Source of the DNA: Rhodopirellula islandica
Lineage (GTDB): Bacteria; Planctomycetota; Planctomycetia; Pirellulales; Pirellulaceae
Length of the DNA stretch: 64,000 nt
NCBI RefSeq assembly: GCF_001027925.1
Contig: NZ_LECT01000017.1
Coordinates: 186,001 to 250,000 of the forward strand
Direction of reading: 5' to 3'
Made by a program: the position numbers and the translations under genes. The notes beneath the pieces were generated by a model, which searched no databases, was not told the origin of the DNA, and worked only from the letters and a program-made list of their open reading frames with translations. The stretch's first letter is position 1. Each line of letters opens with the position of its first letter. Of this stretch, positions 2,570 through 53,712 are shown piece by piece.

Positions 2570-3365
2570 CGTCTCCTGGCGATACCCCGTTTGTGATTGC
2601 AACTCTCGATCACGTTTCCGGTAAAAACCTAGGTTGTTGAGGTTGACCTTGCAAGAAGCTCAGCCTGCTGATTTCGTTGGAGGTGTAACCAACAGGAACG
2701 AAGGCATTGAAACGGGTTTGCCGAATTGGTGCGCAGCACGCTTAGGCGTGTAGTCCCCCATCTCCAATCCGCCACCCAATGGTCGACGAGTTGAGTACAC
2801 ATTCATTCTCAAGACCAAGCCGAATCGAAAGTGTCAATATCTGGCTCGTTAGCATGTTGAATGCTTGGCAGACTGACTTCAGTCTCGCCTTGCCGAGTGG
2901 GCGTCGACACCCAGCAGATGTCCCCTCACCGGCATCGTGCCTTGGGGATTTCCGGGACATTCATGCTGACCGGAATCGAGCCGTCTTTGTCGCAAACGGG
3001 TGAATAAACCCCCTTGACATGCTCAGAATGCTCAGGCAGAGTACTGTAATGCTGTAACGTTGTTTCAGTTTACACACCCCCTGCCTGTTGTCCTGCCCCG
3101 AAATACTGAGTCGCTGTTGGTTCCCTTCGTTCGGAAAAACTGATTTCCCGATCGAACGTGAACGCTCTTGAAAGCTTTGCTCAAATCATTTCCTCATGGT
3201 CACGGAACGAGTCTGTCGTTTCAGTGATGCACTGACGAATCTAATTTTGGCGATCCTGACCATCGAAATTTCAATCCCACAGATTGCAAATTTGGTCAGA
3301 GAACTCACTGCGACCGCATCCTGCCCAGTTCTTGGTCCCCTCCTTTTTTGATCAATGGTTTTTTT
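2570..3365. other. Intergenic region between divergent genes, no supported gene
   Basis: About 800 bases separate the lipoprotein gene (-) from the DUF1559 gene (+). Short open frames exist on both strands but have no recognisable motif, signal peptide or ribosome binding site. A TTGACA hexamer at 3014-3019 has no well-spaced -10 partner. Promoters for both divergent genes presumably lie here, but I cannot place them. Confidence 0.5.
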
Positions 3366-13000: not shown

Positions 13001-16000
13001 GTGCACCAAGCTTGGTTGGCAGTGACGATTCGTTGAACGATACCTTCACGAATCTGGTATTGCCTCTGTCGAGTGAAGTCGATGGAACCCATTTCAACTT
13101 TGGCGAATTGGAAGAAGTCGAACTCAGCGGTTTCGTCTATCACGATGCTGACAACGATGGTGTCCAAGATGCGGGCGAAGTGGGCATCGGCGGTGTCACC
13201 ATCACGCTGGACGGCGTAGACGACAACGGCGTGATCGCTTCGCAAACGATTGTTACCAACGCGGACGGTTCCTATGCCTTCGACGGACTGCGTCCCGGCA
13301 CGTACACGCTGACGCAAACGCCGGTGGCAGGCAACGCACCGTCGGGACGTCCGTACATGGACGGCAAAGAGACCGATGGCAACCACGGCAATGGTGATAC
13401 ATCGGTCAACGAAGTCATTTCGTCGATCGACTTGGTCGCTGGCAACACTGGTACAAACTACAATTTCGCCGAAGTCGTCGAGTCGACTGTTTCGGGCTAC
13501 GTCTATCACGACACCGAAAACGACGGCAGTCGGGCTGGCAACACCGGATTGGGCGGAGTCACGGTCACGTTGACCGGAACCGATGACCTGGGCAACACGG
13601 TGAACTTGACGACCACAACCTCTTCGGCGCCGGGGACACTGGGGTACTACGAGTTCACTGGCCTGCGTCCCAGTGATGGTACAGGGTATGTGATCACACA
13701 AAGCACGCCAGCTGGTTACCTCGACGGCAAAGACTCCGTCGGTAGTCAAGGCGGGACGCTGAACAACGACGCCATCACCAGCATCATCGTGTCCGATACC
13801 GCGGGAACGGAGAACAACTTTGGTGAAATCCTACCGTCTAGCCTCGCTGGGATGGTCTTCAACGACAAAGACCACGATGGCGTGTTGAACAATGACGACG
13901 AAGCCATTGAATCGGTGACGATCACGCTGACAGGGGTCGATGATCTCGGAAACGTGGTCCATCGAACCACGCAAACTCAGGCGGATGGAACTTACCGGTT
14001 CGACAACCTACGCCCCGCTGACGCATCGGGGTACACGCTGACGGAAATCCAGCCAGCGAACTTCAACGATGGTGTTCATTCGGATGGCTCTTTGGCCAAT
14101 GGTGATACCACCGTCACCAATGTGATTGGCAGTGTCAATCTGAATCAAGATCAGGACGGCACCGGTTACAACTTTGCCGAACGGGGCGTCGGAATCGAGG
14201 GCACCGTGTTTTTGGACGCCAACCGGGACGGCATTCTCGACGGAGGCGAAACTGGTCGCTTGGTAGGCATCACGATCGAACTTTATGCGGCCGACGGAAC
14301 CACGCTGTTGGATACGACGACGACCGCCGCGGATGGAACCTACCTGTTTGCCGATCGGAAATCAGACACCTACATCGTTCGCCAAGTTCAACCGTCACAG
14401 TACACGAGCTCGTCTGCCAATGAACGGACCATCAACGTTCCATTGGCGGGAATGTCAGGCGTGGATTTCGGGGAACAGCTGTGGGAGATCGGTGACACGG
14501 TTTACTTCGATCAAGACGGCGACGGTATCCAAGACGCCGGCGAACCCGGCATCGGCAACGTTGGCGTGACCTTGACGTACGCGGGAGCGGACAACACGTT
14601 TGGATCCGCGGACGATACCACGCAATTCACCACCACCGATGCCAACGGAGCGTATTCCTTCACCGACCAGTTCAACGGCGATTATCGGATCAGCATCGCC
14701 GACGCGTCGCTACCCGGTGGACTTTCGGGGACCGCGGAAATCGATGACGTGAATGTCCTCGTTGATGGCACGTCGCACGTCACTGTCCTGGACGGGCACC
14801 GCAACGACGTTGACTTTGGATACGCGAGCACCGGTTCGATTGGAGATTCCGTGTGGTTGGACATCAACGGAGACGGCATTCGACAAGGTCAAGAACGCGG
14901 GCTCGCCGATGTCACCGTTGACCTGCAATTTGCGGGTTTGGATGGGATCTTTGGCAACGACGATGACTTCACGATCGAAACCACCACCGACGCAAATGGC
15001 GTGTATTCGTTCGATCACTTGCCGGTGGGTGATTACCGCGTCGAAATCGACACCAATGATGCGGACCTGCCCGCTGATCTGGTCGCCAGTCCTGGAGTGG
15101 ATTCCATCGCGGGCGTCGCGGAAGTCACGCTTGCGGATGGTGAAACCCGGTCCGACATTGACTTTGGGTTCGCCGGTTCGCTCGTCATTGGTGACCGCGT
15201 CTACATCGACCACAACGCCGACGGAGGCGGTTTTGACAGCAGCGATGGTGACCGGGGAATCGCAGGTGCCACGGTTTCGCTCGACATCGACTACGACGGA
15301 GACGGGACGTTTGACCACACACTGATCACCGCGACCGACGCGGACGGCCAATATCAGTTCAACACACTCATTGCCGGTGATTATCGAGTGCGAGTGGACT
15401 CGTCAACACTCGGTGACAACATCGCAACGACCAGCACATACGATCTGGATGCGGTCCACGACGATCAAACGTTGGTCACGCTGACACCCGGCAACGACAA
15501 CGACACGGCCGATTTTGGATATCCTGGAATCGTTGACTATGCGGTTACAAACATCTCTTCGCTAACGGATGCGGCGCAGGGGGGTGACACCTTCACTTAT
15601 GAAGTCACTGTCACGAACCTCGGCGAGCGTGACGGCACCGGTGTCGTGGTGGTGGATCAGTTCCCGATGGACATCCTGGACGCAAACGGCATGGCCCATG
15701 ATCAACCGGGCGACGCCACTTGGGATTTCGCAAATGGCACTTTGACTTGGAACGTGGGGGACCTTGACGTTGGCCAAACCGAAACGCTCACGGTCACCGT
15801 GCAGGTGCGTCAAATTCCTCTCGATCCACTTGCCGATCAGATCATCACGACCGCTACCGTCACTGATGACACGCTGAACGGTCCGGAAATCACGGTGTCC
15901 AACAACACCGATTCAACTCTTGATGAGCTGATCGTCTTTACGTTTGATTCCTTTACCAACGAAGGCAATTGGGCCAACGACAATCCACGTGACGATCTGC

Positions 16001-16479
16001 CACAGGGGTGGTGGCACGCCCCGGGAGATCCGACCGAACGACAACTGCGCCCCGTCCCGGTCGATCCAATCTTCAGTGGGTTGGCCGAGCCAGGTACAAC
16101 GCTCAGCATTCGGATCTATGACGAGAGCGGACGCTTGATCGGAGACCGCCAAGTGGTCGCAGACACCGGTGGAAACTGGTTGGCAACGTTCCCAGGCAGT
16201 GTGATTTGGAAGCACCCACATCGCATGGAAATTGAACAGGTCGCTTCCATCGAGAACGCGAACCAGGATGCTGGGTTCAACCTGCGTCGATACTTCCATC
16301 CGGCCAACCACTCGTCTCTGATGATGACCGAGCGGTTGACTGTTAGCGGCGTGATGCGAGAGACGGCATATGAAACACTCGAAGTGATACATATCGCACA
16401 CAACGATCCATTGCAGCTTGGTTGCAAAGCGCATCGTTATCAATTGAACACGGCATCCACCAACGTGTCATCAAAGTAG
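7072..16479 (+). CDS. Giant adhesin-like protein: LEPR-XLL, DUF4347, DUF11 repeats, eight SdrD B-like repeats
   Basis: 3135 residues. Residues 20-28 (LEDRILFDA) match the LEPR-XLL signature found at the start of giant planctomycete surface proteins; no classical signal peptide precedes it. Residues about 83-255 are a DUF4347 domain (ELILVDTSVQDY, HLITHG, LIYGCDLA). Residues 260-1890 hold about eight DUF11/TIGR01451-type beta-sandwich repeats (endings such as VIRDVLPAGMNYV, IVDTLDSGLRFVG). From residue about 1890 to 2820 come eight SdrD B-like repeats, each opening with a calcium-loop motif (FDADNDGVKDAGE, HDADNDGVQDAGE, FDQDGDGIQDAGE). One more DUF11 repeat and an Ig-like C-terminal segment follow. 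It is very acidic and aspartate/threonine-rich, as expected for a secreted calcium-stabilised fibre. The following gene cluster is the likely export route (inference). Confidence 0.92.
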   Translation: MKFFRSKERRPASSFILRRLEDRILFDAAVDGGVTPDQYDPSAAQAAVDTNASYVEDAASVSNDLSTNQNADAAADESDESTRELILVDTSVQDYVVIVDDLLANENGSRTFEIALLSTDGDGVQQITDILTTRQDLDAIHLITHGEDAALQVGDTWLTADNLDAYAGDIASWGNALTSQGDILIYGCDLADSAEGQQLADSIAALTGGDVAASNDDTGSTDHDADWELEYHHGNVETSVAVSDALQQSYRGILAVGPVVSVGADQEVMIGQEFSFDVTFDNTGTTAGYGPFIDLVFPANGADGAAGTEAPDGIAFSNATYLGQQLTVTKITFPPSGVVEHPYAVDAAGDPLLVTGTPGDQLVVVELPFGSVTQDQPEVTVQINASVSELADMGTPLKIQARSGFRFGDSPVGGVASILSDTDSDVTDPDNAGTSWSEQLAITPTLMSLRTEYVGPENETATGPNHQRQYRAIADIAAGQIITSLDIIDSLPDNIVVTGIDSVVVGGQTLTGADYTDNLASLTGPGANEELVVTISDDYDTLGGGVVGTTSTSDVEVTFSFYVAEMDAVGDEVIGPTGEDDTIANPDSRSINDARAIGDWTPIDTRDAASANNAVADASGSEHILDDKAIAIQKTVAIATDTGAAGATPGDTLEYTLTFQISGYFTFGNIVITDTFQDGQEFDFTYGATFDIIDSQGHVTGNFTVREITDPDGGERLVVDRTQIDRTDDDGPDAVPGTADDEDGVTPDGTDGSTTLVFDVSGMMQDADGSEDGILQGGLSFNDDDSDIRTAATGVIRFRTVIQEDYADTFESGDRSVDQGDAITNSTLEITGEVRENVEENGGTGDITKVLHEEQDNSSASIDIQRGTLAKEVYAINGDTTLVNGPDGLPQLVAGDRVTYRITYTLPSSDFEDLVLTDFLPLPIFVAGDHNADGTTGDVWTFDADNDFDAVSGTIEVGANDTFFDDSGITPTLTVNSSNGLEIEIGNYDDPSSSSRTIELYLTVTAQDTPTADGLHLTNIVRVEEGTTQQTPTIIDRIVQIEVTQPVLNVTKGVIDADSANETYSGPVGPAGVTFEAAGTAAGGSPFTGTINSANFATQGIQADITGGVDAGDVVRYAIVVENTGSSHSGAFDVAIRDVLPAGMNYVAGSLQVVDGTGAAVAYTGSDLDLFTTGIELTDPSPTQGAIEGYDANHGKNVIVLIYDLQATVAVSPGETLPNTASVTNFAGQESGANHIPDGITVTADVTTDAVIGTKTLVGTEIVSGANGQYAAVIGELVNYEITFTIPEGTTENVTIVDTLDSGLRFVGQTGVTTNNLTIENPITPTVSLDGRRVTWDLGDLTDTDISDNADGTITISYQAVVANTSGNQYGTRLDNTAGFNSEDSQLTSVTPAQDVNVVEPAVTISNSVEVGGIASQTTGDAGDPVEYTVELTNTSTVDAFDLNFASELPTVSDGSSAILGAAFTINDTAGLLDASDFELIGDDATGYTLQLKPGTDFDMLQSQAGRKVTLSVTGTIAHTVTPNQSLVNRPEVSWTSLDGDVGNRSTESTVDTGERDGTPSGSNTHDYLASNAATITINAPAFNKSLFSTNETETSGSDVTIGEQATFALLVSLPEGNSSGIVVTDLMPDGLKYVGYTLVTDAASSGGLMVADYDGTLNSPTVAGGAGAGDDVTFTFDAINTTVDNDGTNNSFLILVETVVVDVDTNVGTAAGANQTQLSNTATIDALDDGVGTNIVTSNAAIVDVAEPNINIVKDIVDSDANAGDTMTIQLAVSNTGLGDAYDVVVDDILNGSHYDLSSVSVGVAGNEYPADFTANYNSMTGEIEYSGGTILAGDRVTFEVTATLLNTVQPDAVLMNTAQVRQATTLQGDVVGERNDTDADSDSVHIREHSLSGFVYFDADNDGVKDAGETGIENVEVRIQGTDHLGQDVDITIQTDADGSYFFGDLRPGTYSITQTQPLFADNGKAYLDGKDTLGAPSLVGSDDSLNDTFTNLVLPLSSEVDGTHFNFGELEEVELSGFVYHDADNDGVQDAGEVGIGGVTITLDGVDDNGVIASQTIVTNADGSYAFDGLRPGTYTLTQTPVAGNAPSGRPYMDGKETDGNHGNGDTSVNEVISSIDLVAGNTGTNYNFAEVVESTVSGYVYHDTENDGSRAGNTGLGGVTVTLTGTDDLGNTVNLTTTTSSAPGTLGYYEFTGLRPSDGTGYVITQSTPAGYLDGKDSVGSQGGTLNNDAITSIIVSDTAGTENNFGEILPSSLAGMVFNDKDHDGVLNNDDEAIESVTITLTGVDDLGNVVHRTTQTQADGTYRFDNLRPADASGYTLTEIQPANFNDGVHSDGSLANGDTTVTNVIGSVNLNQDQDGTGYNFAERGVGIEGTVFLDANRDGILDGGETGRLVGITIELYAADGTTLLDTTTTAADGTYLFADRKSDTYIVRQVQPSQYTSSSANERTINVPLAGMSGVDFGEQLWEIGDTVYFDQDGDGIQDAGEPGIGNVGVTLTYAGADNTFGSADDTTQFTTTDANGAYSFTDQFNGDYRISIADASLPGGLSGTAEIDDVNVLVDGTSHVTVLDGHRNDVDFGYASTGSIGDSVWLDINGDGIRQGQERGLADVTVDLQFAGLDGIFGNDDDFTIETTTDANGVYSFDHLPVGDYRVEIDTNDADLPADLVASPGVDSIAGVAEVTLADGETRSDIDFGFAGSLVIGDRVYIDHNADGGGFDSSDGDRGIAGATVSLDIDYDGDGTFDHTLITATDADGQYQFNTLIAGDYRVRVDSSTLGDNIATTSTYDLDAVHDDQTLVTLTPGNDNDTADFGYPGIVDYAVTNISSLTDAAQGGDTFTYEVTVTNLGERDGTGVVVVDQFPMDILDANGMAHDQPGDATWDFANGTLTWNVGDLDVGQTETLTVTVQVRQIPLDPLADQIITTATVTDDTLNGPEITVSNNTDSTLDELIVFTFDSFTNEGNWANDNPRDDLPQGWWHAPGDPTERQLRPVPVDPIFSGLAEPGTTLSIRIYDESGRLIGDRQVVADTGGNWLATFPGSVIWKHPHRMEIEQVASIENANQDAGFNLRRYFHPANHSSLMMTERLTVSGVMRETAYETLEVIHIAHNDPLQLGCKAHRYQLNTASTNVSSK

Positions 16480-16518
16480 CGTCGAGCCTGCTTGAGACGC
16501 GCCGTCAATCTTCAGACG

Positions 16519-16550
16519 TTCAATCACGCCCCGTTCGAGGCGTGGTTGAA
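16519..16550 (+). terminator. Terminator after the giant gene
   Basis: Twelve-base-pair stem with one G-T pair (TTCAATCACGCC 16519-16530 against GGCGTGGTTGAA 16539-16550), 8-base loop, followed by CACGCTGTTTTT. Located 40 bases after the stop. It would separate the giant gene from the secretion genes, unless read-through occurs. Confidence 0.7.
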
Positions 16551-16757
16551 CACGCTGTTTTTGGGCCTGTTTGACGGTCCAGTTCAGCCGAAAGGTGTTG
16601 GTGAAAATTCCATTTGCGCGTTTGCGCAATCGGCCAAACTCCTATGAAGCGTCATGTTGCATCGCACCTGTACAAAAGGTCGGTGGCGCGACGAGTGTTA
16701 AGTTCACCGCGATGATTCATTGCGTGGATCACAGACACCCTCCACTCGGATTGACGG

Positions 16758-18536
16758 ATGCTTCAGCTTTCAAATCTGTCGGATGCTCGACGACCTGTTC
16801 GCCGACGACACTTGGTGTGTTCATTGGGATGCGTCGCCACAATTGCCTCGCTCTTGCCGAGTGTCACTTCGGCGCAAACCGGATCGCTGGCCGCTTATGA
16901 GAATTCATATTCACCTCAGATCCAAGTCGCTGCCGATTCCGACGCCAGCGAGTTGAGTTCGCTGCAACAACTCGCGCCCGTGCAGGATGGCTATCGACCA
17001 TGGTGGCAGGATGTGCTGACTACCCCGATGCAGGCCGATTCCAACACCGTCCTGATTGGTGTGGAAGACTTGCTTGTGCGAACGCTTCAGAATTCTTCCC
17101 AGGTCAAGGTGTTCAGCGACCTGCCATTGATTCGCCAGACTGCGATCACGGAAGCTTGTGCTGCCTTTGACTGGAATGCGTTCATGAACACTCGGTGGGA
17201 CGACAATTCCGATCCCGTTGGCAACGTCCTGACGACGGGCGGATCCGATCGCTACCACAACCACCAATGGACAGGGAGTGCCGGCCTGGCTCGACGCAAT
17301 CACTACGGTGGGCGTTTCGAGGTCGCTCAGGACTTTGGTCACCAGAATACGAACAGCACTTACTTCCAGCCCAACAACCAAGGCACAGCGAAACTGCGTC
17401 TCAGCTACATTCAACCGCTGATGCAAGGTCGTGGCAAGGTTTACAACAACTCGTTGGTTGTGTTGGCTGCAATTGACACTTCGATTGCCGAAGACGAATT
17501 TTCGCGGCAATTGCAATCTCATTTGCTGGAGGTCACGCGAGCCTACTGGGCGTTGTACCTGGAACGCGCCACGTTGGTGCAAAAGCGACGGTCGCTCGAA
17601 CTCGCGCAGCAGGTTCAAGACAGTCTGCGGGCTCGTGCCAGCGTCGACGTGGTCGGCAGTCAACTCGCACGAGTCGATGCCGCCGTTACCAACCGGCGAT
17701 CAGAACTGGTGCGTGCCGAAATGGCCGTCCGGAACGCTCAAGATCGAGTTCAAGCTCTGGTGAATGATCCTGAGTTTGCCATGACCACGAACTTAGAGAT
17801 GGTTCCCGTCGATCTGCCTCGTTTGGAATCAACCCACCTGGCCGTGGGTGACGTGTTGTCAACAGCGATGCAAAAACGGCCTGAGATCGACCAAGCGATC
17901 AAGCAAATCAAAGCGGCTTGTGTGCGTCTGAACATGTCCAAGAACGAACTGTTGCCCCAGTTCGACTTCATTGGCGAAACATATGTCGCTGGTCTTCGCG
18001 GGCACAGTGACATCGGTCGGGCGTGGACGGATCAGTTCAGCACCGGAGAACCCAGCTATGCGATCGGTCTGTCCTATCAAATGCCGATTGGCAACCGAGC
18101 GGCCAAGGCCCGATTGCAGCGCCGGCGATTGGAAGTGCGGCAATTGCAAAACCAGTTCAATGCCACCGCCGAAACCCTGTTGATGGAAGCCAAAGTCGCC
18201 GTCCGGGAAGTTCGCACGGCAGAACGAGAATACCAAGCCAAGTTCGCCGCCATGGTTGCCGCGGAAACACGCCTGGACAGCATCCAGCAGCGTTGGTCGC
18301 ACGTCCCAGGACAGAATGGTTCAATCGGCTTGTACCTGGAAGATCTGCTCGCCGCTCAATCTCAACTGACAGACGCGGAATCTGAATTCACACGTGCGCT
18401 GACGACCTACAACTTGTCGCTCATGAACGTCAAACGAGCCAGTGGCACCCTGCTGGAAACCGAGCAAGTCACCGAAGGCGTCGCAGAGACCGGTGGTCTC
18501 CCGACGAAGATTCTTGACAAGCCAATTCTCGAGTGA
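16758..18536 (+). CDS. TolC-like outer-membrane efflux protein
   Basis: 592 residues with an N-terminal signal sequence (SLGCVATIASLLPSVTSAQT) and two outer-membrane-efflux-protein (OEP) halves rich in long amphipathic helices (for example ARVDAAVTNRRSELVRAEMA and TAETLLMEAKVAVREVRTAE). The repeated -LxxA-x-L- pattern and duplicated fold are those of trimeric TolC/CusC-type channels that connect an inner-membrane adaptor to the outside. It is the first gene of the + strand run continuing through SecA-like, HlyD, GAF/HlyD and M50/HlyD genes, directly downstream of the giant surface protein. ATG 16758 leaves a rather long basic leader before the hydrophobic core. Confidence 0.88.
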   Translation: MLQLSNLSDARRPVRRRHLVCSLGCVATIASLLPSVTSAQTGSLAAYENSYSPQIQVAADSDASELSSLQQLAPVQDGYRPWWQDVLTTPMQADSNTVLIGVEDLLVRTLQNSSQVKVFSDLPLIRQTAITEACAAFDWNAFMNTRWDDNSDPVGNVLTTGGSDRYHNHQWTGSAGLARRNHYGGRFEVAQDFGHQNTNSTYFQPNNQGTAKLRLSYIQPLMQGRGKVYNNSLVVLAAIDTSIAEDEFSRQLQSHLLEVTRAYWALYLERATLVQKRRSLELAQQVQDSLRARASVDVVGSQLARVDAAVTNRRSELVRAEMAVRNAQDRVQALVNDPEFAMTTNLEMVPVDLPRLESTHLAVGDVLSTAMQKRPEIDQAIKQIKAACVRLNMSKNELLPQFDFIGETYVAGLRGHSDIGRAWTDQFSTGEPSYAIGLSYQMPIGNRAAKARLQRRRLEVRQLQNQFNATAETLLMEAKVAVREVRTAEREYQAKFAAMVAAETRLDSIQQRWSHVPGQNGSIGLYLEDLLAAQSQLTDAESEFTRALTTYNLSLMNVKRASGTLLETEQVTEGVAETGGLPTKILDKPILE

Positions 18537-18618
18537 CCAAGTTTCGACAGCGGTGCCAACGCTGCGTCCGATGATGGTTTGGGTGAATGATTCGCCTGCT
18601 TGTTAACTGTCTCTCACC

Positions 18619-18672
18619 TTTGGTCTCCGGTAACACGGACTCTTGCTGTTCTGTGTTACCAGGGACACCAAA
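18619..18672 (+). promoter_or_regulatory. Long interrupted hairpin between the TolC-like and SecA-like genes
   Basis: GGTAACACGGA (18629-18639) pairs with TCTGTGTTACC (18650-18660). The flanking TTTGGTCTCC (18619-18628) pairs imperfectly with AGGGACACCAAA (18661-18672). It lies about 90 bases after the TolC-like stop and just before the preferred SecA-like start at 18695. It may terminate or attenuate, or protect mRNA ends. It also argues against the longer ORF start at 18587, which would translate through the hairpin. Confidence 0.5.
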
Positions 18673-18694
18673 AACTCACGCCCACCGAACTCCT

Positions 18695-20665
18695 ATGATC
18701 CCACCCCGGTTGCCTGCACTCTCGCAATGGCTTGGCTTCGCTGAAAGGCGAAAGCAGGCTTCGTGTGATGAGATCCTTCCATCGGCGAAGACACTCGCCT
18801 GTGCAATCAGTTCACTCAGTGACAGTGAACTGCGTTGGCATGCGAATTTGTTGCGAGATCAACAAACGGGTCCCCATTCCGCATGTTTGAGTGAGCGTTC
18901 GGGGAATCAAGATTCGCAACTCACAACTCATGCGATGGCCTTTGCGGTTGCTGCGATTCAGCGGCAACTTGGTTACACGGTCTACGACGTTCAACTCCAA
19001 GCCGCTCTGGTGATGTCCAGCGGCCAGATCGCTGAAATGCAAACCGGCGAAGGAAAAACGATCACCGGCGCGGTCGCGACGATCATTCATGCGATGCGTC
19101 ACCAGCAGGTTCATGTTGCAACGTCCAATGCCTACCTTGCCCGCCGTGACTGGGAATTGCTCGCCCCCGTTTTTGATCGGCTGGCGCTGAGTTCGGGGCA
19201 TTCATCAGCCGATCAGTCCCCCCGTGAAAAGCGGGCCGCTTATCAGTGCGACATTGTTTTCGCGACGGGATATCAGTTTGGATTTGACTACCTACGCGAT
19301 CAAATCACGCTCGCCGCTCAACCGCGCAAGCAACTTGGACAATCCATTCGCGAATCACTGCGTGGGCAATCCGATCCGCAGCAGTTGCGTTGCCAAACGC
19401 GACATCAAGTTGCGATCGTGGATGAAATCGATAGTGTTCTGATCGACGAGGCCATGACACCGTTGGTTTTGTCGCAGCAACGCCCGCAGGTCCGCGACAA
19501 TTCGCTCGTGTCTTCCCCTGACAATGAATCGTCCCACCAGACCAGTGTCTTCGATGCGGCGCGAGCTTGCATGCAGACGCTGGTTCCAGGCACCAATTTT
19601 CAGGTCGATTCGCTGCAGCAAACCGTTCAACTTACGGAACTGGGAATTCAACGAGCCTTTGAATGGTTGCAGACGCGCCGGATCAAATTGTCCATGCCAT
19701 GGCCGAACTACATTCAAACCGCATTGCGAGCGGAGTGTCTGCTGACCCGCGACATCGACTACGTCGTGCGGGATGGAAAAGTGCAGATCGTCGATTCCTC
19801 CACCGGCCGGATCGTGCCCGACCGGCAATGGAGGTCAGGATTGCACCAAGCGGTGGAAACAAAAGAGCACGTCCCATTGAGCGAATCACGGCGCACGCAG
19901 GCGCGCATGTCCCGGCAACGCTACTTCGCTCGCTACGAAACCTTGTGCGGGATGACGGGCACCGCGTCGGGACACGAACGGGAATGGAAACAATCGTATG
20001 CCTTGAAAGTGCATGCCATCCCGACGCGTCTTCCCTGCAAACGACGCGTCGAGCCCACGCTCTATTTTGCTGACCACACACAGAAACTCGCCCGCCTTGC
20101 GGATGAGGTCTCAGAACATCACCAGATCGGGCAACCCATTCTGATCGGCACTCGAAATATTTTGCAAACCAAGCAAGTCTCCAAAGCTCTTATGCAAGCC
20201 GGTTTGAACCATCACCTTCTGAACGGCGTGCAAGACGAAACCGAAGCGGCTCTGATCGCCGCGGCGGGAACGTCTTCCGCGATCACGGTGGCAACCAACA
20301 TGGCAGGTCGTGGCACCGACATTTCGGTTGACGAAAGAGCACTGGCCGCTGGGGGGCTGCACGTCATCGGGCTGGAACGAAACCTGTCCGCTCGAATCGA
20401 TCGCCAATTGCTAGGACGGGCCGCACGCCAAGGACAACCCGGCAGCGGTCGGTTCTATGTGTCCGCCGACGACGAATTGGTTCAACGACACGACCCTGGA
20501 TTGCAATCGATCCTAAGCCGATTGAAGTCACCAATCCCAAACGAGGCCTGGGATCGCCGAATCCAACAATTGCAAACCATCGCGGAACGAGAAAACTTTC
20601 GCATTCGAAAACAGACCGCCCAACAAGAGGAATGGCTCGATGAACTTCGCCAACAGGTCGCCTGA
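18695..20665 (+). CDS. SecA-like ATPase truncated in the helical scaffold domain
   Basis: 656 residues from ATG 18695 (the open frame can begin at 18587). The SecA motor is well preserved: QAALVMSSGQIAEMQTGEGK with Walker A around residue 118, THAMAF upstream, FGFDYLRDQ, the DEAD-like VDEIDSVLIDEA around 242, MTGTASG, and NBD2 with ATNMAGRGTDI, GLHVIGLERN and RQLLGRAARQGQPG. A preprotein-binding-like insertion lies between. After NBD2 only the start of the long scaffold helix remains (ERENFRIRKQTAQQEEWLDE aligns with ARNFDIRKQLLEYDDVL of housekeeping SecA). The two-helix finger, wing, C-terminal linker and zinc-binding SEC-C tail are absent. It overlaps the next adaptor gene by 26 bases. It is probably a specialised motor rather than the housekeeping SecA. 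Confidence 0.88.
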   Translation: MIPPRLPALSQWLGFAERRKQASCDEILPSAKTLACAISSLSDSELRWHANLLRDQQTGPHSACLSERSGNQDSQLTTHAMAFAVAAIQRQLGYTVYDVQLQAALVMSSGQIAEMQTGEGKTITGAVATIIHAMRHQQVHVATSNAYLARRDWELLAPVFDRLALSSGHSSADQSPREKRAAYQCDIVFATGYQFGFDYLRDQITLAAQPRKQLGQSIRESLRGQSDPQQLRCQTRHQVAIVDEIDSVLIDEAMTPLVLSQQRPQVRDNSLVSSPDNESSHQTSVFDAARACMQTLVPGTNFQVDSLQQTVQLTELGIQRAFEWLQTRRIKLSMPWPNYIQTALRAECLLTRDIDYVVRDGKVQIVDSSTGRIVPDRQWRSGLHQAVETKEHVPLSESRRTQARMSRQRYFARYETLCGMTGTASGHEREWKQSYALKVHAIPTRLPCKRRVEPTLYFADHTQKLARLADEVSEHHQIGQPILIGTRNILQTKQVSKALMQAGLNHHLLNGVQDETEAALIAAAGTSSAITVATNMAGRGTDISVDERALAAGGLHVIGLERNLSARIDRQLLGRAARQGQPGSGRFYVSADDELVQRHDPGLQSILSRLKSPIPNEAWDRRIQQLQTIAERENFRIRKQTAQQEEWLDELRQQVA

Positions 20666-21596
20666 GAGCAAACATGCCCGTCCAATGCCGTTGTCCCCCA
20701 GAATGCGACTCAATCCATCGGTGTTTGCTGTCCTGATGCCGGCAACGTTGCTGCTGGCAATGTCAGTGTTCGCAAATTGCGTCCAGGCCGAGATTCCTTC
20801 CGGTCGATCCCCCGAGTCGTTTTCTGAACCCTTGGAAACGATTGACTTGGCCGCAGCAGAACCTGGTGTTGTGGATACGTTGGCCGTTCGCGAAGGCGAC
20901 GCGGTCAAGACGGGGGATTTGATTTGCCAACTTCGCTGCGATGTGCTCAAGGCGACTCGTCATGCCACGCTGACCAAGATCAATGCGACCGGCAAACGCG
21001 AGGCAGCGGCAGCAACGCTTTCCCATCACCAAAACCATTTGAATCAACTTCAAGCGTTGCTTGCGAAGAACCATGCCAACGATCAGGAAGTTGCCGACGC
21101 CCAATTCAACGTTCAGATCGCGGAAGCACAGTTGCAAACGGTCGACGATGAACGAGCGACGTTGCGAGCCGAGTTGGAACAGATCGAGGCACAGATCGCC
21201 CGCCGCCAAATCATCGCTCCCACCGATGGCATTATTTTGCAATTGCCAGCGCGGGTTGGCGAACGAGTCGGCACCTCTGACTCTCCCGTCGCCCAATTGG
21301 TCGTGTTGAACAAACTCCGTGTGCGGTATCACCTCACCACCGTTCAAGCGGCTCAATTGTCGGTTGGATCGCAACAAACGCTGACCTTTCCTGACTTCGG
21401 CACGCACGCGATTGGAACGGTTGACTTCATCGCCCCGACCACCGATCCCAGCAGCGGAACGGTTCGCGTGGAACTGTTGATCGACAATGCCAACAGACGG
21501 CATCGATCGGGAGTTCGGTGTCAGTTGAAGTTGCCGGATGCATCCCATGCCGAACCGATGCAGGCAACTGTCCTGCATCGACGCTCTCCCCAATGA
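20640..21596 (+). CDS. HlyD/RND-type periplasmic adaptor protein
   Basis: 318 residues. Basic N-terminus then a membrane-spanning or signal segment (VFAVLMPATLLLAMSVFANC). The biotinyl-lipoyl half-motifs are VVDTLAVREGDAVKTGDLIC and RRQIIAPTDGIILQLPARVG, separated by a coiled-coil hairpin (about residues 95-195, for example NHLNQLQALLAKNHANDQEV). A beta-barrel segment (LRVRYHLTTVQAAQLSVG) follows. The architecture is that of membrane-fusion adaptors joining an inner-membrane machine to TolC. The start overlaps the SecA-like gene by 26 bases, and its end overlaps the longest frame of the next gene, so translation is probably coupled. Confidence 0.88.
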   Translation: MNFANRSPESKHARPMPLSPRMRLNPSVFAVLMPATLLLAMSVFANCVQAEIPSGRSPESFSEPLETIDLAAAEPGVVDTLAVREGDAVKTGDLICQLRCDVLKATRHATLTKINATGKREAAAATLSHHQNHLNQLQALLAKNHANDQEVADAQFNVQIAEAQLQTVDDERATLRAELEQIEAQIARRQIIAPTDGIILQLPARVGERVGTSDSPVAQLVVLNKLRVRYHLTTVQAAQLSVGSQQTLTFPDFGTHAIGTVDFIAPTTDPSSGTVRVELLIDNANRRHRSGVRCQLKLPDASHAEPMQATVLHRRSPQ

Positions 21597-21705
21597 CCCT
21601 TTCCTGCTGAATCCTTCGCATCGCGAAAATCGATTTGCCTGGGAAACCATAGTGCTTCACCAAGCCACCGCTCCTTCTGAAACAGTTCTGCCCCGCTCGA
21701 TCAAT

Positions 21706-23274
21706 ATGCCTGTCATCACACCATCCAGTGGAACTGCTTTTCAAGCAATTCCACCTGAGAGTCTCACTGCACAAGATTCCGGCACACCGCAGCACCGCAT
21801 TGATTCGGCGCAGGTTCGTAGCACGGAATCCGCCTCCGAATTCGCTGAACTGCAGTGGCAGATTGACGCCACCGCCGCGATCGCTGAATTGATGTCGAAG
21901 ATCGCATCGGCACGCCGTCTGGACGAGGCCCATTTGATTGTTGCGAATGCATTGCGAGAGTTCTTGGGAGCCGATGTGGTGGCAGTCGGGACTGTGAATC
22001 CAGGCTCTTCGCTGGTGCGTGTCCGTAGCGTTTCCGATGTGTCATCGATCGACGAAAGTTCGCAAGTTTCGCAACAGTTCGAGCAAGCAATGTCGGAAAG
22101 TATCGTGCGTTTTCGAGAACAACTTGCACGCACGACGGTGGTCGATCCAGACTCCGAACACGTGGCTTTGATGCAATTGGCTCACGAACGGTTGCTAAGC
22201 GTGACGGGGACGCAGTGCGCCGTCTCGTGCCCCCTGTTCTCCCAACTTGGTCCGCAGCAGACTCCGTCCGACCCTGAGCATCGAGAACTCAGTGCCACGC
22301 AAAGCGACCCCGTCGCGGTCTGGACAGCCCTTTTCCGGCAACGTCCAACGGAGCTGGATCGCTGGAAATATTTTGCCAACGCCTGCCAACAACCGCTGGG
22401 CGAATCATTGGCAGTCGCCGGACGGGCCTGCGAAGGCCCACTGGCCCGACTTCGACGTGTGGTGAGCGAGTCTTCCGCTTGGACCCGCAAGAAAATGGTG
22501 CTTGGTGGTTCCTTGGCGATTGCTTTGGCCATGACGATTCCGATCCCGCATCGGGTTGGCTGTGTTTCCGTACTGCAGCCGGTCGAACAACGGTTCGCCG
22601 TCGCTCCCCATGACGGGATCCTCGAACAAGCCATGGTGCGAGCGGGTGAGCAGGTTCACACCGGGCAACTGCTGGCTGAAATGGATGCAACCGATCTTCG
22701 ATTGCAGATCGCGGACGTGACGGCTCAAAAGGAACGAGCAGAAAAGAAACGCGATCTTCATCGAGCCAGCGGTGATGCCGCATCGACCCAGTTGGCTGAA
22801 TTGGAAACCGATGAATTGGCCGCCCAGTTGGCATTGCTTGAGCATCGTGCAGCTCATCGACAGATCGTCAGCAGCATCGATGGGATTGTGTTGCGGAGCG
22901 AGTTGGACGAAGCCCGCGGTGTGCCTGTCCGAACTGGCGATGTCCTGATGCAAGTTGCACCGCTGGAAACATTGCGAGCTGAGCTCGAAATCGCCCCTGC
23001 AGATCTCGCCCATATCAAGCTGGGGCAAACCGTCAGTTTGGTCCCCGACGGCAATCCACTGCACCGGGTCCAAGGGACGATTGATACCATCCGCCAAGCG
23101 TCGGAAGTTCGGGAAGGTCGCAACGTGTTCCTGGCGACTGTCACGATCGACAACCACGACGGTCGCTTGCGTCCTGGGATGAAGAGCCGGACCAAGGTCG
23201 ACGCCGGCTATCGAGCCAGTGGTTGGGTGCTGTTTCACAGCGCGATCGAGAAAACTTACGGGATGCTGCGATGA
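21706..23274 (+). CDS. GAF-like domain fused to a membrane-anchored HlyD adaptor
   Basis: 522 residues from ATG 21706; the open frame extends upstream to 21538, but that part overlaps the previous gene and has no domain. Residues about 40-210 resemble a GAF-type sensor fold (IAELMSKIASARRLDEAHLI, ALREFLGADVVAVGTV, TGTQCAVSCPL). A transmembrane helix follows at about 265-282 (GGSLAIALAMTIPIPHRVG). The periplasmic half carries lipoyl half-motifs (AVAPHDGILEQAMVRAGEQV, RQIVSSIDGIVLRSELDE), a short coiled coil and a beta-barrel (LRAELEIAPADLAHIKLGQT). A cytoplasmic sensor joined to an export adaptor suggests regulated assembly or secretion; this is inference. Its stop overlaps the next start (ATGA). 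Confidence 0.82.
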   Translation: MPVITPSSGTAFQAIPPESLTAQDSGTPQHRIDSAQVRSTESASEFAELQWQIDATAAIAELMSKIASARRLDEAHLIVANALREFLGADVVAVGTVNPGSSLVRVRSVSDVSSIDESSQVSQQFEQAMSESIVRFREQLARTTVVDPDSEHVALMQLAHERLLSVTGTQCAVSCPLFSQLGPQQTPSDPEHRELSATQSDPVAVWTALFRQRPTELDRWKYFANACQQPLGESLAVAGRACEGPLARLRRVVSESSAWTRKKMVLGGSLAIALAMTIPIPHRVGCVSVLQPVEQRFAVAPHDGILEQAMVRAGEQVHTGQLLAEMDATDLRLQIADVTAQKERAEKKRDLHRASGDAASTQLAELETDELAAQLALLEHRAAHRQIVSSIDGIVLRSELDEARGVPVRTGDVLMQVAPLETLRAELEIAPADLAHIKLGQTVSLVPDGNPLHRVQGTIDTIRQASEVREGRNVFLATVTIDNHDGRLRPGMKSRTKVDAGYRASGWVLFHSAIEKTYGMLR

Positions 23275-25406
23275 ACGGATACGATTCCCAATCTTTTGAA
23301 CTGGCCAACGCTCACTTGCAGCGACGCGATGGACTGAGCGTCCGCTTGCATGAATCGCGAGGGGAAGCGACCTACTTGGTAAGCGATGGGGTGTCCTCGA
23401 ATTTCCATCAATTGGGGAGCGCACAGTATGCGTTTCTCTCCGCCCTGGATGGCAAGACTAGCCTGGAAGAAGTGACGGGGCGGATCGCCAGTGAACTTCC
23501 CAAATTGGCACTGACGGCCAGCCAAGCCGAACAGACCGCTCGGTACCTGCTCGATCATCAACTCATCTTTGCAGTCGATGCGAATGGTGAACCACTCAAT
23601 GCCACGAATCGTTTGCAGCGGCAATCGGAACGCGCCGCACAACAACGCAAACAAGAGAATGCCAATCCGCTGTTCCTGAAGTTTCCGCTGGGCAATCCAA
23701 CACGCCTGCTGAACGCGATCGTTCCGTGGACGCAATGGCTGTTTGCGCCCGCCTGCATTGTCTTCGCAATTGCCTTGGGCCTGATTGCGATGGCGAGATT
23801 GTGGCAGAACGCAGATGAACTTGCCGTCAGCCTGCAAGGAGTCATCTCCCCGACATCCGGGATTTGGTTGGCGGTGACCTTCGTCGGGTTGAAGATCGTT
23901 CACGAACTGGGGCACGCCATCGCCTGTCGTCGGCTTGGCGGCACCGTTCGCGAAACCGGAGTCGTGTTCATTCTGTTCGTCCCCATTCCCTATGTGGACG
24001 TCACGTCCGCGTGGGACTTTCCGTCCAAGCAACAACGGATGCTCGTTTCGGCTGCGGGGATGATGGTCGAAATGATGGTGGCGTCCTTGGCTGCGATTGC
24101 TTGGTCATTGAGTCACGATCCTGTCGTGCGGTTTCATCTGACAAATTGGATGTTGATGGGAACGCTCACGACGGTTCTCTTCAACGCGAATTTCCTGATG
24201 CGTTTTGACGGCTATTTTTTGCTCTCCGACGCCATAGGAATCCCCAATCTCGCTGCCCTTTCTCGGCAATGTGTTCAGGCTAGGTTGAAACAACTGTTGT
24301 TGGGATCAACGAGCAAACTTCCCGCTGACATGATGCAACATCAGACGGTGCTGATGTCTTACGGTGTCGCCGCGATGATTTGGCGATGGATCGTTTGCAT
24401 GGGACTCGCCGTAGCCGCATCGAAACTGTTCAACGGCTTTGGTTTGATTCTGGCAATCGCGAGTTTGGTGGCATGGTTTGGCCGTCCAGCGATGGGGATT
24501 CTAAAATCGTTGGTGGCCGATACCGTGGAAGGTGCCAGTGCTCGGCGGACGCTCGTGCGCCGCACGGTTCCCTCATTGCTCGGGATCGTGGTCTTGATGT
24601 GTCTCACGCCATGGCCGGGGCGAGTTTCCTCGCCCGCGGTGGTCCGGTTCCATCAAGCGGAAATCGTGCGGGCTCAGACAACTGGCTTTGTCGATCAAAT
24701 TTTGGTGCAACCAGGCCAATTCGTTCATGCGAATCAACCCATCGCCAAACTGAAGAACCAAGCTCTCGTCACCGAGATCGAATCGTTGCAAAGCCAAGTC
24801 GATGCCGCACGCATTCGTGCACGGCGAGAATGGGCGGATGGAAAGATTGCCTCGCATCATGCCGAAGTCGCGGTTGCGGACTCGCTGCAGAGTCGATTGA
24901 ACAACCGTCGCGAACGTTTGGAATTGCTCACCATCCGCGCCGGTTCCTCCGGACGAGTCATGCTGCCGCCGCAAACCGCGTCGTTAGATGATTGGCTGGG
25001 ACGATATGCTCGGGAAGGAACGGAACTGGCCAGGGTCGTTGATCCCGCGAGGAAAGAACTGCTCGTCAGCATCGGACAATCCGATCGAAATACATTTGCC
25101 GAATGCGTCAACGAGATCGTCGAGTTCGTGCCTCACTCGGCCCTGCCAGTCACTTCGGCAAGGCTCGAACGAGTCGAGCCCACCGCAACTGATCAAACCG
25201 ATCCTCGCCTCACTGCATCGGCTGGTGGTCCGTTGACCGAACACAGGATCGCCACCGAGACACGCTTGATTGCCCCCCGATTTGAGGCTGTGGTCAAGCT
25301 CGATCCACAGGCATCGATCCAACTCGCCAGCGGCTTGACCGGCCAAGTCCGCCTGGATCGTCGCCCCCGTTCCATCGCGGGCTATCTGTTGATGAAATTC
25401 CTCTGA
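23271..25406 (+). CDS. PqqD-like / M50 site-2-protease-like / HlyD fusion protein
   Basis: 711 residues from ATG 23271, sharing ATGA with the preceding stop. N-terminal about 100 residues resemble a PqqD-type peptide-binding winged helix (QYAFLSALDGKTSLEEVTGR), tentative. A multi-pass membrane domain follows, with the zinc-protease motif HELGH at 211-215 and the second metal motif region NFLMRFDGYFLL near 307-318, both intact, as in peptidase family M50. After further membrane helices, residues about 460-610 form an HlyD-like adaptor (FVDQILVQPGQFVHANQPIA, coiled coil, LLTIRAGSSGRVML). M50/HlyD fusions are known near export systems, where they are thought to process or gate substrate. Here it closes the cluster and could mature the giant surface protein (inference). 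Confidence 0.85.
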   Translation: MNGYDSQSFELANAHLQRRDGLSVRLHESRGEATYLVSDGVSSNFHQLGSAQYAFLSALDGKTSLEEVTGRIASELPKLALTASQAEQTARYLLDHQLIFAVDANGEPLNATNRLQRQSERAAQQRKQENANPLFLKFPLGNPTRLLNAIVPWTQWLFAPACIVFAIALGLIAMARLWQNADELAVSLQGVISPTSGIWLAVTFVGLKIVHELGHAIACRRLGGTVRETGVVFILFVPIPYVDVTSAWDFPSKQQRMLVSAAGMMVEMMVASLAAIAWSLSHDPVVRFHLTNWMLMGTLTTVLFNANFLMRFDGYFLLSDAIGIPNLAALSRQCVQARLKQLLLGSTSKLPADMMQHQTVLMSYGVAAMIWRWIVCMGLAVAASKLFNGFGLILAIASLVAWFGRPAMGILKSLVADTVEGASARRTLVRRTVPSLLGIVVLMCLTPWPGRVSSPAVVRFHQAEIVRAQTTGFVDQILVQPGQFVHANQPIAKLKNQALVTEIESLQSQVDAARIRARREWADGKIASHHAEVAVADSLQSRLNNRRERLELLTIRAGSSGRVMLPPQTASLDDWLGRYAREGTELARVVDPARKELLVSIGQSDRNTFAECVNEIVEFVPHSALPVTSARLERVEPTATDQTDPRLTASAGGPLTEHRIATETRLIAPRFEAVVKLDPQASIQLASGLTGQVRLDRRPRSIAGYLLMKFL

Positions 25407-28314: not shown

Positions 28315-30123
28315 ATGACGTTTTCTGCAGCCAAGATTGAAACCGAGGACCTCATCGAGTCACTCGGTCGGTTTCGAAGTTCGGTGTTGCCTGCCGGGGT
28401 GATGCGTGAACTGATGCAACGGGGCTCGGAAGTGATGCCTGCGTTGATCGCGAGGATGGATCGAGCGATTGAGTCGAAGGAACTGGGGCTCGGCAGCGAG
28501 TACCCGGAAGCCTTTTTTTGTTACCACTTGCTGGGCATCGACCCACAGCCGAGTTTACAAGCATGGTTTGATCGGCTGTTTCGCTGTGATGATGACAGGA
28601 TGGAAAGGGTCTGCGGCGAGATCACGGGCCGGTTCACCCGTGCAATCTTGACCGCGATCGCCGATCGCGAAGATATCACGGCATTTTGCCAATGGCTGGA
28701 CTCGCTGGTCCAGGATGATCAGGTCAGCGACTACATCAAGCTGCAAGTGGTTGAAGTGTTGTTCAATCTCGTCGCTGACAACGCACTGGACGATGCCACG
28801 GCGGTTCAGTGGGTGCGGACTTGGATGGAACAGCGACAAACGCACAAATTTGACTTGTTTTCATCAATGGCGATGACATCGTTGATCGATGTTGGCGGCA
28901 GCGATTTCAAATCGTTGGCGGAGGAATGTTTCAAACGAGGTCAAATCGACGATGACTATGTGGGGCTGGAATCTTTCCAAGGGATGGCCAGCGAACGCCA
29001 AACAACGTTCTCGCGAGAGCAATTGGAGATCGACCAGCAGATCGTTTCCAATCCGATCGAATATTTGGCCGATTGGCATGCATTCGCATGGACAACCGAT
29101 GATTTGGATCGGCATCGGGCACATTGCAAAAGACTGCCTGAGGCCTTTTCAATTCGTTCTGATCGAGCTGAGCCCAATCAGATCGACGGGTGGTTGGCGG
29201 AGCTGGATCAATCGAATTTCAAGAACTATCCGTTCGAAGCGGTCGAGAATCTGAACCGGTTCATTGGCCAAGTCTTTCGACCGCTCACCTCCCGAGTTCG
29301 ACGCGGCATCGAATCAGCCCGGCGTGACGAACCAAGTTCCAACAATGGCCCCTACCTCGCGACGATCCTGCTCACGCACAATTCCCAATCACGCGAAGTC
29401 TTGATTGACGATGCGGATCTGTTGTTGGAACTCCTGGATCTTCCCAAACACCAACGGGAAGAATGGTTCGGCGCATCGATCGAACCGGGATTGGTCGAGG
29501 GATTGGCTCATGCTCTGGTGGGGAAGACAGAGCCGATTGTGGAACGGATCCAGGATTGCAATCGAAAGGAGTTCGATCGAGCCGCTTTGGTTTCGTACTT
29601 CATTGTTTCAGTCTATTTCCAGTACCTGAACCGTGGTGAGTGCATCGAAACCCTGCGTCAGCTTTGGACAACTCTGAGTCAACAGGAAACGGATGGTGAC
29701 GAAGGCGCGATGATGTCCAAGACGGCCATCTTTGATGCAGCCTGTTTGCTTTCGTTGCCCGAGAGCGACCCGCTGATGCAACAGGCCGCCCGCGAGGGAG
29801 TCTCCCATCATCGGTTGAGTGCCGAATCGGCAAAGGTGTGTCGCGAGCAACCAGAGAACGCTGCGAAAGTGGTGCGTTCTGACGTGTTGCCACCGTACTC
29901 CCTGGTCGACGTGATTTCGGAAGGTGGCAAATTCGCTGTCACCGCGCTCCATCGCAACCCGATAACGCAGGCACGGGGGTTCACCGCGTTGAGATCCTCG
30001 GACTTGACTCCGGAACCGCAACTTAGCGGCACCCTGAGAAGCGCGGAACCCAAGGTGGGGCGGAACGACCCGTGTCCGTGTGGCAGCAACAAGAAGTACA
30101 AAAAGTGCTGCCTTCGACGTTAA
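28315..30123 (+). CDS. Large helical protein with C-terminal SEC-C zinc-binding motif
   Basis: 602 residues. The C-terminus is a clear SEC-C motif (VGRNDPCPCGSNKKYKKCC), the zinc-binding module also found at the end of SecA and in many uncharacterised proteins. The preceding 570 residues are mainly helical, with HEAT-like character in the first 230 (LMQRGSEVMPALIARMDRA) and a segment related to uncharacterised SEC-C proteins (WHAFAWTTDDLDRHRAHCKR). No catalytic motif is visible. ATG 28315 has no strong ribosome binding site. Role unknown; SEC-C can mediate contacts with SecB or the ribosome in other proteins. A transposase remnant follows 5 bases after the stop. Confidence 0.75.
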   Translation: MTFSAAKIETEDLIESLGRFRSSVLPAGVMRELMQRGSEVMPALIARMDRAIESKELGLGSEYPEAFFCYHLLGIDPQPSLQAWFDRLFRCDDDRMERVCGEITGRFTRAILTAIADREDITAFCQWLDSLVQDDQVSDYIKLQVVEVLFNLVADNALDDATAVQWVRTWMEQRQTHKFDLFSSMAMTSLIDVGGSDFKSLAEECFKRGQIDDDYVGLESFQGMASERQTTFSREQLEIDQQIVSNPIEYLADWHAFAWTTDDLDRHRAHCKRLPEAFSIRSDRAEPNQIDGWLAELDQSNFKNYPFEAVENLNRFIGQVFRPLTSRVRRGIESARRDEPSSNNGPYLATILLTHNSQSREVLIDDADLLLELLDLPKHQREEWFGASIEPGLVEGLAHALVGKTEPIVERIQDCNRKEFDRAALVSYFIVSVYFQYLNRGECIETLRQLWTTLSQQETDGDEGAMMSKTAIFDAACLLSLPESDPLMQQAAREGVSHHRLSAESAKVCREQPENAAKVVRSDVLPPYSLVDVISEGGKFAVTALHRNPITQARGFTALRSSDLTPEPQLSGTLRSAEPKVGRNDPCPCGSNKKYKKCCLRR

Positions 30124-53624: not shown

Positions 53625-53712
53625 GGTGGTTGGACAGGCCGGAGCCCACTAAGAAGAAATGCGATTCAAGGCGACACGGGGGGGCAACATAAAGAGGAAG
53701 GCAGCTTCGCGG

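Follow-up and report, generated by a model that had tools for sequence, protein, structure and literature searches.

How may a surface-type protein of 3135 amino acid residues leave the cell of Rhodopirellula islandica, and which genes would serve it? This question is raised by a stretch of 64,000 nucleotides of this planctomycete (assembly GCF_001027925.1, contig NZ_LECT01000017.1, positions 186,001 to 250,000; hereafter the window, position 1 being its first letter), in which the open reading frame (ORF) of such a giant protein is followed by five genes resembling parts of an export machine. On sequence grounds, we consider it fairly probable that the locus is a type I-like tripartite exporter whose gene set contains no ABC exporter, which serves giant proteins carrying a LEPR-type tag and is usually driven by a SecA-like ATPase. 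The gene set, the conserved catalytic residues and a linkage with LEPR/DUF4347 proteins that recurs in Planctomycetota, Verrucomicrobiota and Pseudomonadota were observed directly.

The giant, the presumed substrate, is encoded at 7072-16479 on the forward strand and contains DUF4347, SdrD_B and DUF11 domains, the DUF4347 domain covering residues 85-254 (7324-7833, +; PF14252, 3.7e-48). On its 3' side the five genes lie on the same strand between 16758 and 25406: a TolC-type outer-membrane channel, OEP, of 592 residues (16758-18536; PF02321, 3.4e-25), a secondary SecA_DEAD ATPase of 692 residues (18587-20665; SecA_DEAD 1.2e-79, with PP_bind and a P-loop, without SecA_SW), an HlyD/RND-type periplasmic adaptor of 318 residues (20640-21596; HlyD_D23 7.9e-18, HlyD_3, RND_mfp 120 bits), a GAF-type/HlyD adaptor of 578 residues (21538-23274, whose start could be 21706; HlyD_D23/HlyD_3) and a PqqD-like/M50/HlyD fusion (23271-25406; M50 9.8e-07, HlyD_3 3.1e-07, daptide_HExxH 163 bits). 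The ORF of the last gene opens at a TTG at 23223, and an ATG is present at 23271. An earlier note on this DNA had given these gene identities, their same-strand order and the giant ORF directly before them, and our ORF calls and Pfam scan agree with it. It had also reported overlaps, of which the 26 bases shared by the SecA-like and HlyD genes (20640-20665) and the ATGA shared by the GAF-HlyD and M50-HlyD genes (23271-23274) were recovered, whereas the overlap of the HlyD and GAF-HlyD genes depends on the start codon: the ATGA at 21593 is not in the frame of GAF-HlyD, whose in-frame ATGs are at 21538 (the first) and 21706. The OEP and SecA-like genes are separated by 50 bases.

The cluster recurs across many genomes, more than chance would give, and the link with LEPR/DUF4347 proteins that the note had proposed to search for in planctomycete genomes was found to be real and wider than guessed. 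Within the R. islandica genome there are seven M50-HlyD genes, an eighth weak match falling in a GAF-HlyD gene, and three of the four DUF4347 proteins stand beside a module (in the window and on contigs C52 and C53); the one on C43 does not. On C52, the DUF4347 giant is divergent from OEP, SecA, HlyD, GAF-HlyD and M50-HlyD genes in this order, and on C53 (from 44292; loci L084 and L085) a 9420-residue LEPR-XLL/DUF4347 frame is divergent from OEP, HlyD, GAF-HlyD and M50-HlyD, without SecA. Further M50-HlyD loci of this genome (L021, L023, L024 and L025) have neither SecA nor DUF4347.

DUF4347 was found in 11 of 118 planctomycete genomes, with 13 matches above 60 bits in seven of them. Ten of these 13 strong matches share a contig with an M50-HlyD gene at a distance of 4.2 to 15.4 kb, eight of them within 10 kb; the two longest distances are 12.0 kb, for the third of the DUF4347 genes in G027:C403, and 15.4 kb, for the window's own match, the latter being measured from the domain to the M50 gene and spanning both giant and module. 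With the window's own match excluded, nine of 12 matches, at seven loci, lie within 12.1 kb, where chance would give 0.15 loci, as computed from genome sizes and M50-HlyD copy numbers. At the level of whole genomes, M50-HlyD is also associated with matches to the LEPR-XLL model NF012209. M50-HlyD is present in 12 of 13 genomes with LEPR-XLL (E 0.005 or better) versus 18 of 105 others among the 118 genomes, and a draw of 393 genomes gave 74 of 76 (the misses being G087 and G228) versus 105 of 317, or 93 of 317 when 12 weak M50-HlyD matches are left out (E 1e-20 to 1e-45, all of them in LEPR-negative genomes). Among the matches listed, LEPR/M50-HlyD pairs are 2.2 to 7.1 kb apart in G292:C73 (a frame of 8904 residues), G273:C135, G165:C51, G142:C3, G249:C1, G305:C1, G380:C37 and G331:C1. 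A phylum survey of 50 loci showed LEPR or DUF4347 in nine and SecA in 16.

A wider view was obtained by scanning named contigs with a 15-row M50-HlyD alignment, from which the best 80 of at least 594 loci, mostly Planctomycetota, were taken. At no more than 7.5 kb from each locus's best M50-HlyD gene, GAF-HlyD was found in 74 of the 80 loci, HlyD in 61, OEP in 28, SecA in 28, LEPR in 15 and DUF4347 in 13, with either or both of the last two in 15; for the 30 loci that have 7.5 kb on both sides the counts were ten for LEPR, nine for DUF4347 and 13 for SecA. LEPR and/or DUF4347 stand near the module in planctomycete loci L086, L087, L090, L091, L094, L098-L101, L104, L105, L107, L109 and L122, as well as in Verrucomicrobiota (L123, L144, L153) and in a gammaproteobacterium (L135). 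Moreover, 18 of the 26 M50-HlyD genomes that are not labelled planctomycete contain LEPR-XLL proteins, one frame reaching 17246 residues.

The strongest test of the association started from the side of the cargo, in Pseudomonadota (the phylum of G417, Granulosicoccaceae, L163), where 46 of 397 genomes have LEPR-XLL. Twenty giants from 19 genomes were chosen by hand, by tag and length, among 70 listed rows before their neighbours were known (mostly top-scoring long frames, fragments and short contigs being skipped), and the profiles built from the module were applied to the DNA adjoining either end, as far as the contig extended. GAF-HlyD and/or M50-HlyD was found near 17 of the 20. M50-HlyD accounts for 15 of these, namely two in G808 (for one of which the gene belongs to the same cluster but is about 15 kb away) and one each in G567, G651, G432, G437, G550, G791, G783, G555 (upstream of the giant), G424, G573, G639 (a fragment, at the limit of the DNA analysed), G587 and G500. 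GAF-HlyD only was seen in G436, at a contig end, and in G479, where a LEPR-XLL frame of 19427 residues (G479:C115, about 54643-112924) has GAF-HlyD just past its end. A SecA-like gene is near ten of these giants, the match in G791 being weak (92 bits). Given one or two M50-HlyD genes per 4-Mb genome, we estimate that chance would place one beside a giant about once in a hundred cases.

The feature which these giants have in common is the N-terminal tag. In the window's protein it reads LEDRILFDAA (residues 20-29; 7129-7158, +). Although the earlier note called this giant a LEPR-XLL protein, it is no formal member of that family: NF012209 (24 positions, cut-off 17 bits) gives no match, though the tag fits the motif. 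From the same genome, the proteins of C53 and C43 are matched by this model, and the C52 giant scores 14.4 bits. In a table of 39 distinct N-termini, from which four non-fitting proteins (L065, L082, L083 and one of L091) are excluded, the common stretch is LE[PDE]R[IVL]L[FLY][SD]A. The collection pattern itself restricts positions +1, +2, +3, +4, +6 and +9, and only the other positions are free evidence; among these, the narrow ones are +5 (I, V or L in 38 of 39), +7 (F, L or Y in 36), +8 (S or D in 36) and +11 (P in 23), and L, V, I or F is often found three positions before the tag. The first 80 residues of the window's giant have no strongly hydrophobic stretch (maximum Kyte-Doolittle value, KD(11), 1.39), and a basic start precedes the tag. 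The LEPR-type tag is probably the export signal of the giants. Proteins tagged LEDRTLL also occur near orphan SecA-like genes without a nearby module, in L076 (11043, 16233) and L077 (3273, 1).

The earlier note knew of no described system with this set of genes; one was in fact described in 2015 by Kamneva, Poudel and Ward (PMC4452313). These authors reported a secondary SecA_DEAD protein, with SecA_SW absent or reduced to a small fragment, beside M50, HlyD and GAF-HlyD genes and sometimes OEP, found no ABC transporter, and proposed SecA as the ATPase and the M50 protein as a membrane pore, with a possible regulatory role for the GAF member, in Planctomycetes, Verrucomicrobia, Proteobacteria, Nitrospirae and Chlorobi. 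The window's locus shares with theirs a SecA_DEAD protein lacking SecA_SW, a neighbouring M50 protein with an HlyD domain, and the absence of an ABC gene from the locus; of their GAF-HlyD, HlyD is found here, and GAF is detected in 35 of 63 relatives and not in the window's protein. The machine is the secondary-SecA locus reported in 2015, or a form of that locus without SecA. No cargo or signal is named by Kamneva and colleagues, in whose main text the words LEPR, giant, adhesin, cadherin and PqqD do not occur. Likewise, the passages on LEPR-XLL/DUF4347 in PMC10868602, PMC9611531, PMC12322963 and PMC8262886 name no export system, and the literature searched yielded no paper on the system besides PMC4452313, and none on the export of LEPR-XLL/DUF4347 proteins. 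The cargo link across phyla, the optional SecA, the retained M50 active site and the daptide/PqqD-like features are additions of the present study; as far as the literature found goes, the assignment of LEPR/DUF4347 giants as cargo and of the tag as probable signal is new, and its basis is the linkage.

What the M50 protein may do in such a machine can be judged from its family. The window's protein has the HELGH zinc-protease motif at 23901-23915 (+) and the conserved Asp at 24207-24209, and over 102 rows of the family H227, E228 and D329 are invariant and H231 is conserved in at least 90%. All 61 module M50 proteins match NF041824, the daptide leader protease, and 44 of 61 match the LiaK/YydH model (NF058609), the window's protein reaching 163 bits against NF041824, below the 300-bit equivalog cut-off. 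HlyD_3 is present in 57 of the 61 relatives and PqqD in 16; the PqqD-like head claimed for the window's protein was not detected there, although these relatives carry it. No good PDB relative of the M50 protein was found (best E 0.38). PqqD-type domains bind leader peptides in pathways of ribosomally synthesized and post-translationally modified peptides (RiPPs). The M50 family resembles the RiPP-leader proteases by sequence, and from its likeness to daptide, YydH and LiaK proteases together with PqqD we infer that the tag may be a leader which is read and perhaps clipped. It differs from these proteases in the fusion with HlyD and in the putative cargo, a giant instead of a small peptide, as well as in the 163 bits of the window's protein.

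The same protein could be read as a site-2 protease which, with the GAF protein as a sensor, controls the synthesis of the giant, so that the locus would serve signalling and not export. The conserved M50 active site, the GAF domains in 35 of 63 family rows (Pfam finds none in the window's protein, for which the note had claimed a GAF-like domain) and the regulatory role suggested for the GAF member in PMC4452313 agree with such a function. On the other hand, HlyD domains are carried by both proteins (63 of 63 GAF-HlyD rows and, as said, nearly all M50 relatives) and the set often includes a TolC-type channel; a regulator would have no need of a cross-envelope conduit. Signalling is, in our opinion, very unlikely to be the function.

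The SecA-like ATPase has the Walker A motif MQTGEGKT at 19037-19060 (+), of which M and TGEGKT are at least 90% conserved in 53 rows. The DEAD and PP_bind domains are present in 53 of 53 relatives and the P-loop in 52, and SecA_SW was found in none of the 53, nor in the window's protein, which scores 530 bits against the 800-bit cut-off of the NCBIfam secA equivalog. Its residues 110-689 align to 59-608 of the 841-residue chain 3iqy_A, and the top PDB sequence matches are SecA 2 chains. The wing and the two-helix finger of SecA presumably lie beyond residue 608 of that chain; with the alignment ending there and SecA_SW absent, both are therefore taken to be missing. The protein is likely an ATPase, and since the wing/scaffold domain is absent it is not expected to use SecY in the way classical SecA does. 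Four SecA_DEAD proteins are encoded in the genome, one of canonical length (1240 residues), the window's, that of C52 (690) and an orphan on C26 (734). A second SecY, as in SecA2/SecY2 systems, was considered and rejected, as the genome has one SecY.

SecA2 serves large surface proteins, and the accessory Sec systems (SecA2, SecA2/SecY2) resemble the present locus in having a second SecA beside such proteins; they differ from it in that here there is no second SecY, the wing/scaffold domain is absent and HlyD/TolC parts are present. In a two-step alternative, the SecA-like protein would be a SecA2-type helper on SecYEG that brings the giant to the periplasm, HlyD and TolC parts would take it across the outer membrane and M50 would serve quality control only. 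The SecA 2 chains among the PDB matches and the single SecY of the genome would suit it, and in some bacteria SecA2 does work with the canonical translocase (PMC4452313). The missing SecA_SW, wing and finger, the N-terminus of the window's giant, which is nowhere strongly hydrophobic, and the absence of SecA from many module loci all speak against two steps, and we regard this alternative as unlikely.

The last point bears on the exporter reading as well. The earlier note took SecA for the motor; a SecA-like ATPase without SecA_SW does belong to the window's gene set, but it is not the defining part. SecA as a universal core was rejected, as module loci without SecA recur, and the core of the module is M50-HlyD, GAF-HlyD and HlyD. 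The SecA-less set of OEP, HlyD, GAF-HlyD and M50-HlyD stands beside a DUF4347 giant on C53 of the same genome and also in G069, G092, L086, L090 and L100. On an M50-HlyD tree (138 rows, some unlabelled, made by a fast method with 34 weak forks of 135), the labels change at least nine times for SecA and 13 times for LEPR.

Several observations count against a tripartite exporter of LEPR-tagged giants that is usually SecA-driven. SecA is optional in module loci: in G069 and G092, where both M50-HlyD and DUF4347 giants occur, the sole SecA match at E 1e-60 is a protein of canonical length. Neither LEPR nor DUF4347 lies within 7.5 kb in 65 of the 80 named loci, and 41 of the 50 phylum-survey loci have no such ORF within that distance. 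Three strong DUF4347 proteins are away from any module (G000:C43, G042:C1, whose ORF runs to the contig start, and G029:C32); among the tag-picked giants, G668 has no module nearby, and G448 and G661 could not be judged, their downstream ends being off the contig. The LEPR model misses the window's own giant, and at E up to 1 it matches in seven of 14 control genomes, one above the cut-off; at E 0.005 and 0.02 no LEPR-XLL was found in these 14 genomes. The genome counts, further, take no account of kinship. To these is added the question of an ABC partner: L065 has, on the strand of its M50 gene and 1.5 kb away from it, an ABC ATPase of 220 residues (3-665, -); L066 has one of 222 residues (2581-3249, -) at 5.5 kb, and L050 a C39-type ABC exporter (14844-17057, -) about 7 kb from the M50-HlyD gene. 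L065 and L066 lack SecA, and therefore the motor of these loci could be an ABC ATPase, unless the two are chance neighbours; no other finding argues as strongly against taking the whole family to work without ABC proteins.

These ABC genes near L065, L066 and L050 would agree with a type I secretion system in which SecA and M50 are accessories and the energy comes from an ABC protein whose gene lies elsewhere or is only loosely linked. HlyD adaptors, a TolC-type channel and very large surface cargo are indeed shared with type I secretion (HlyB-HlyD-TolC), and a Vibrio giant has LEPR-XLL at one end and RTX domains at the other (PMC10868602). Type I secretion has an ABC exporter, whereas the five module genes of the window include no ABC, RND or SecY gene in the Pfam scan; the window's giant has no RTX family by the same scan, the common tag is N-terminal, and for the window's adaptor RND_mfp is the top-scoring model. 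A partner of the ABC type within the module was rejected, none being found among the window's module genes, in its giant or inside the modules of relatives. As for an ABC partner encoded near relatives' modules, which the earlier note had named as a refutation, ATPase-only proteins stand near the SecA-less L065 and L066. A motif scan (Walker A/signature) flagged five ABC-like ORFs in the module loci and none beside the tag-picked giants; besides the one of L148, Pfam gives ABC_tran in all four that were scanned (L065, L066, L050 and L111), those of L065 and L066 being ATPase-only proteins of about 220 residues and that of L111 going with an MlaE-type permease. Among 172 neighbouring ORFs (within 6 kb, 200-900 residues, from loci with SecA or DUF4347), scanned in two batches, no ABC family had two or more matches in a batch, a family matched once, such as that of L066, mostly not showing in this result; OEP was the sole export family with two or more (five of 83 in one batch). 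An ABC-powered type I system is, in view of these results, a quite improbable explanation.

The claim that no inner-membrane pump is present holds inside the module, but an RND pump does occur in the window, 25 kb off: ACR_tran (1070 bits) with an adjoining HlyD-type protein of 388 residues at 50355-54879 (-), a separate efflux pair outside the module. Between the giant and OEP lies a terminator-like hairpin of 13 pairs (16518-16551, +), found by a pattern scan only that gave 15 such sites in the region versus 10.5 expected; in view of this hairpin the giant may be transcribed separately from the export genes. No Rfam element reached its gathering score at positions 5000-30000. Further, the gene at 28315-30123, on the downstream side of the SecA-like gene and 8 kb away from it, encodes a DUF1186 protein that has a SEC-C motif at its C-terminus, whereas the SecA-like gene has lost SecA's own C-terminal region; this may be a coincidence.

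Taking the tripartite exporter as the preferred reading, transport, its direction, recognition and cleavage are what we infer from the observations above. The conduit would consist of the TolC-type channel, the HlyD adaptor or adaptors and the membrane-embedded M50-HlyD protein. At the inner membrane the tag would serve as a leader, for which the PqqD-like head of the M50 protein is the most plausible reader, and the M50 protease may clip it. The short SecA-like ATPase would probably supply the chain to the M50/HlyD conduit; at SecA-less loci, an orphan SecA copy would have to be borrowed, of which this genome has one, or another source used, perhaps an ABC ATPase. In its most specific form, the LEPR-XLL leader would be bound by the PqqD-like head and clipped like a RiPP leader, and the finger-less SecA would drive the chain N-terminus first through M50, HlyD and TolC, without ABC or SecY; this form is put forward tentatively, as a possible and somewhat doubtful version.

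The locus described in 2015 had no named cargo and the LEPR-XLL/DUF4347 proteins had, in the literature found, no named route, and the linkage reported here pairs them. Our study bears on how proteins of 3,000 to 19,000 residues get outside the cell. If the proposed reading is true, the system would be an HlyD/TolC protein exporter which works without an ABC transporter, and in which a SecA motor is used away from SecY.

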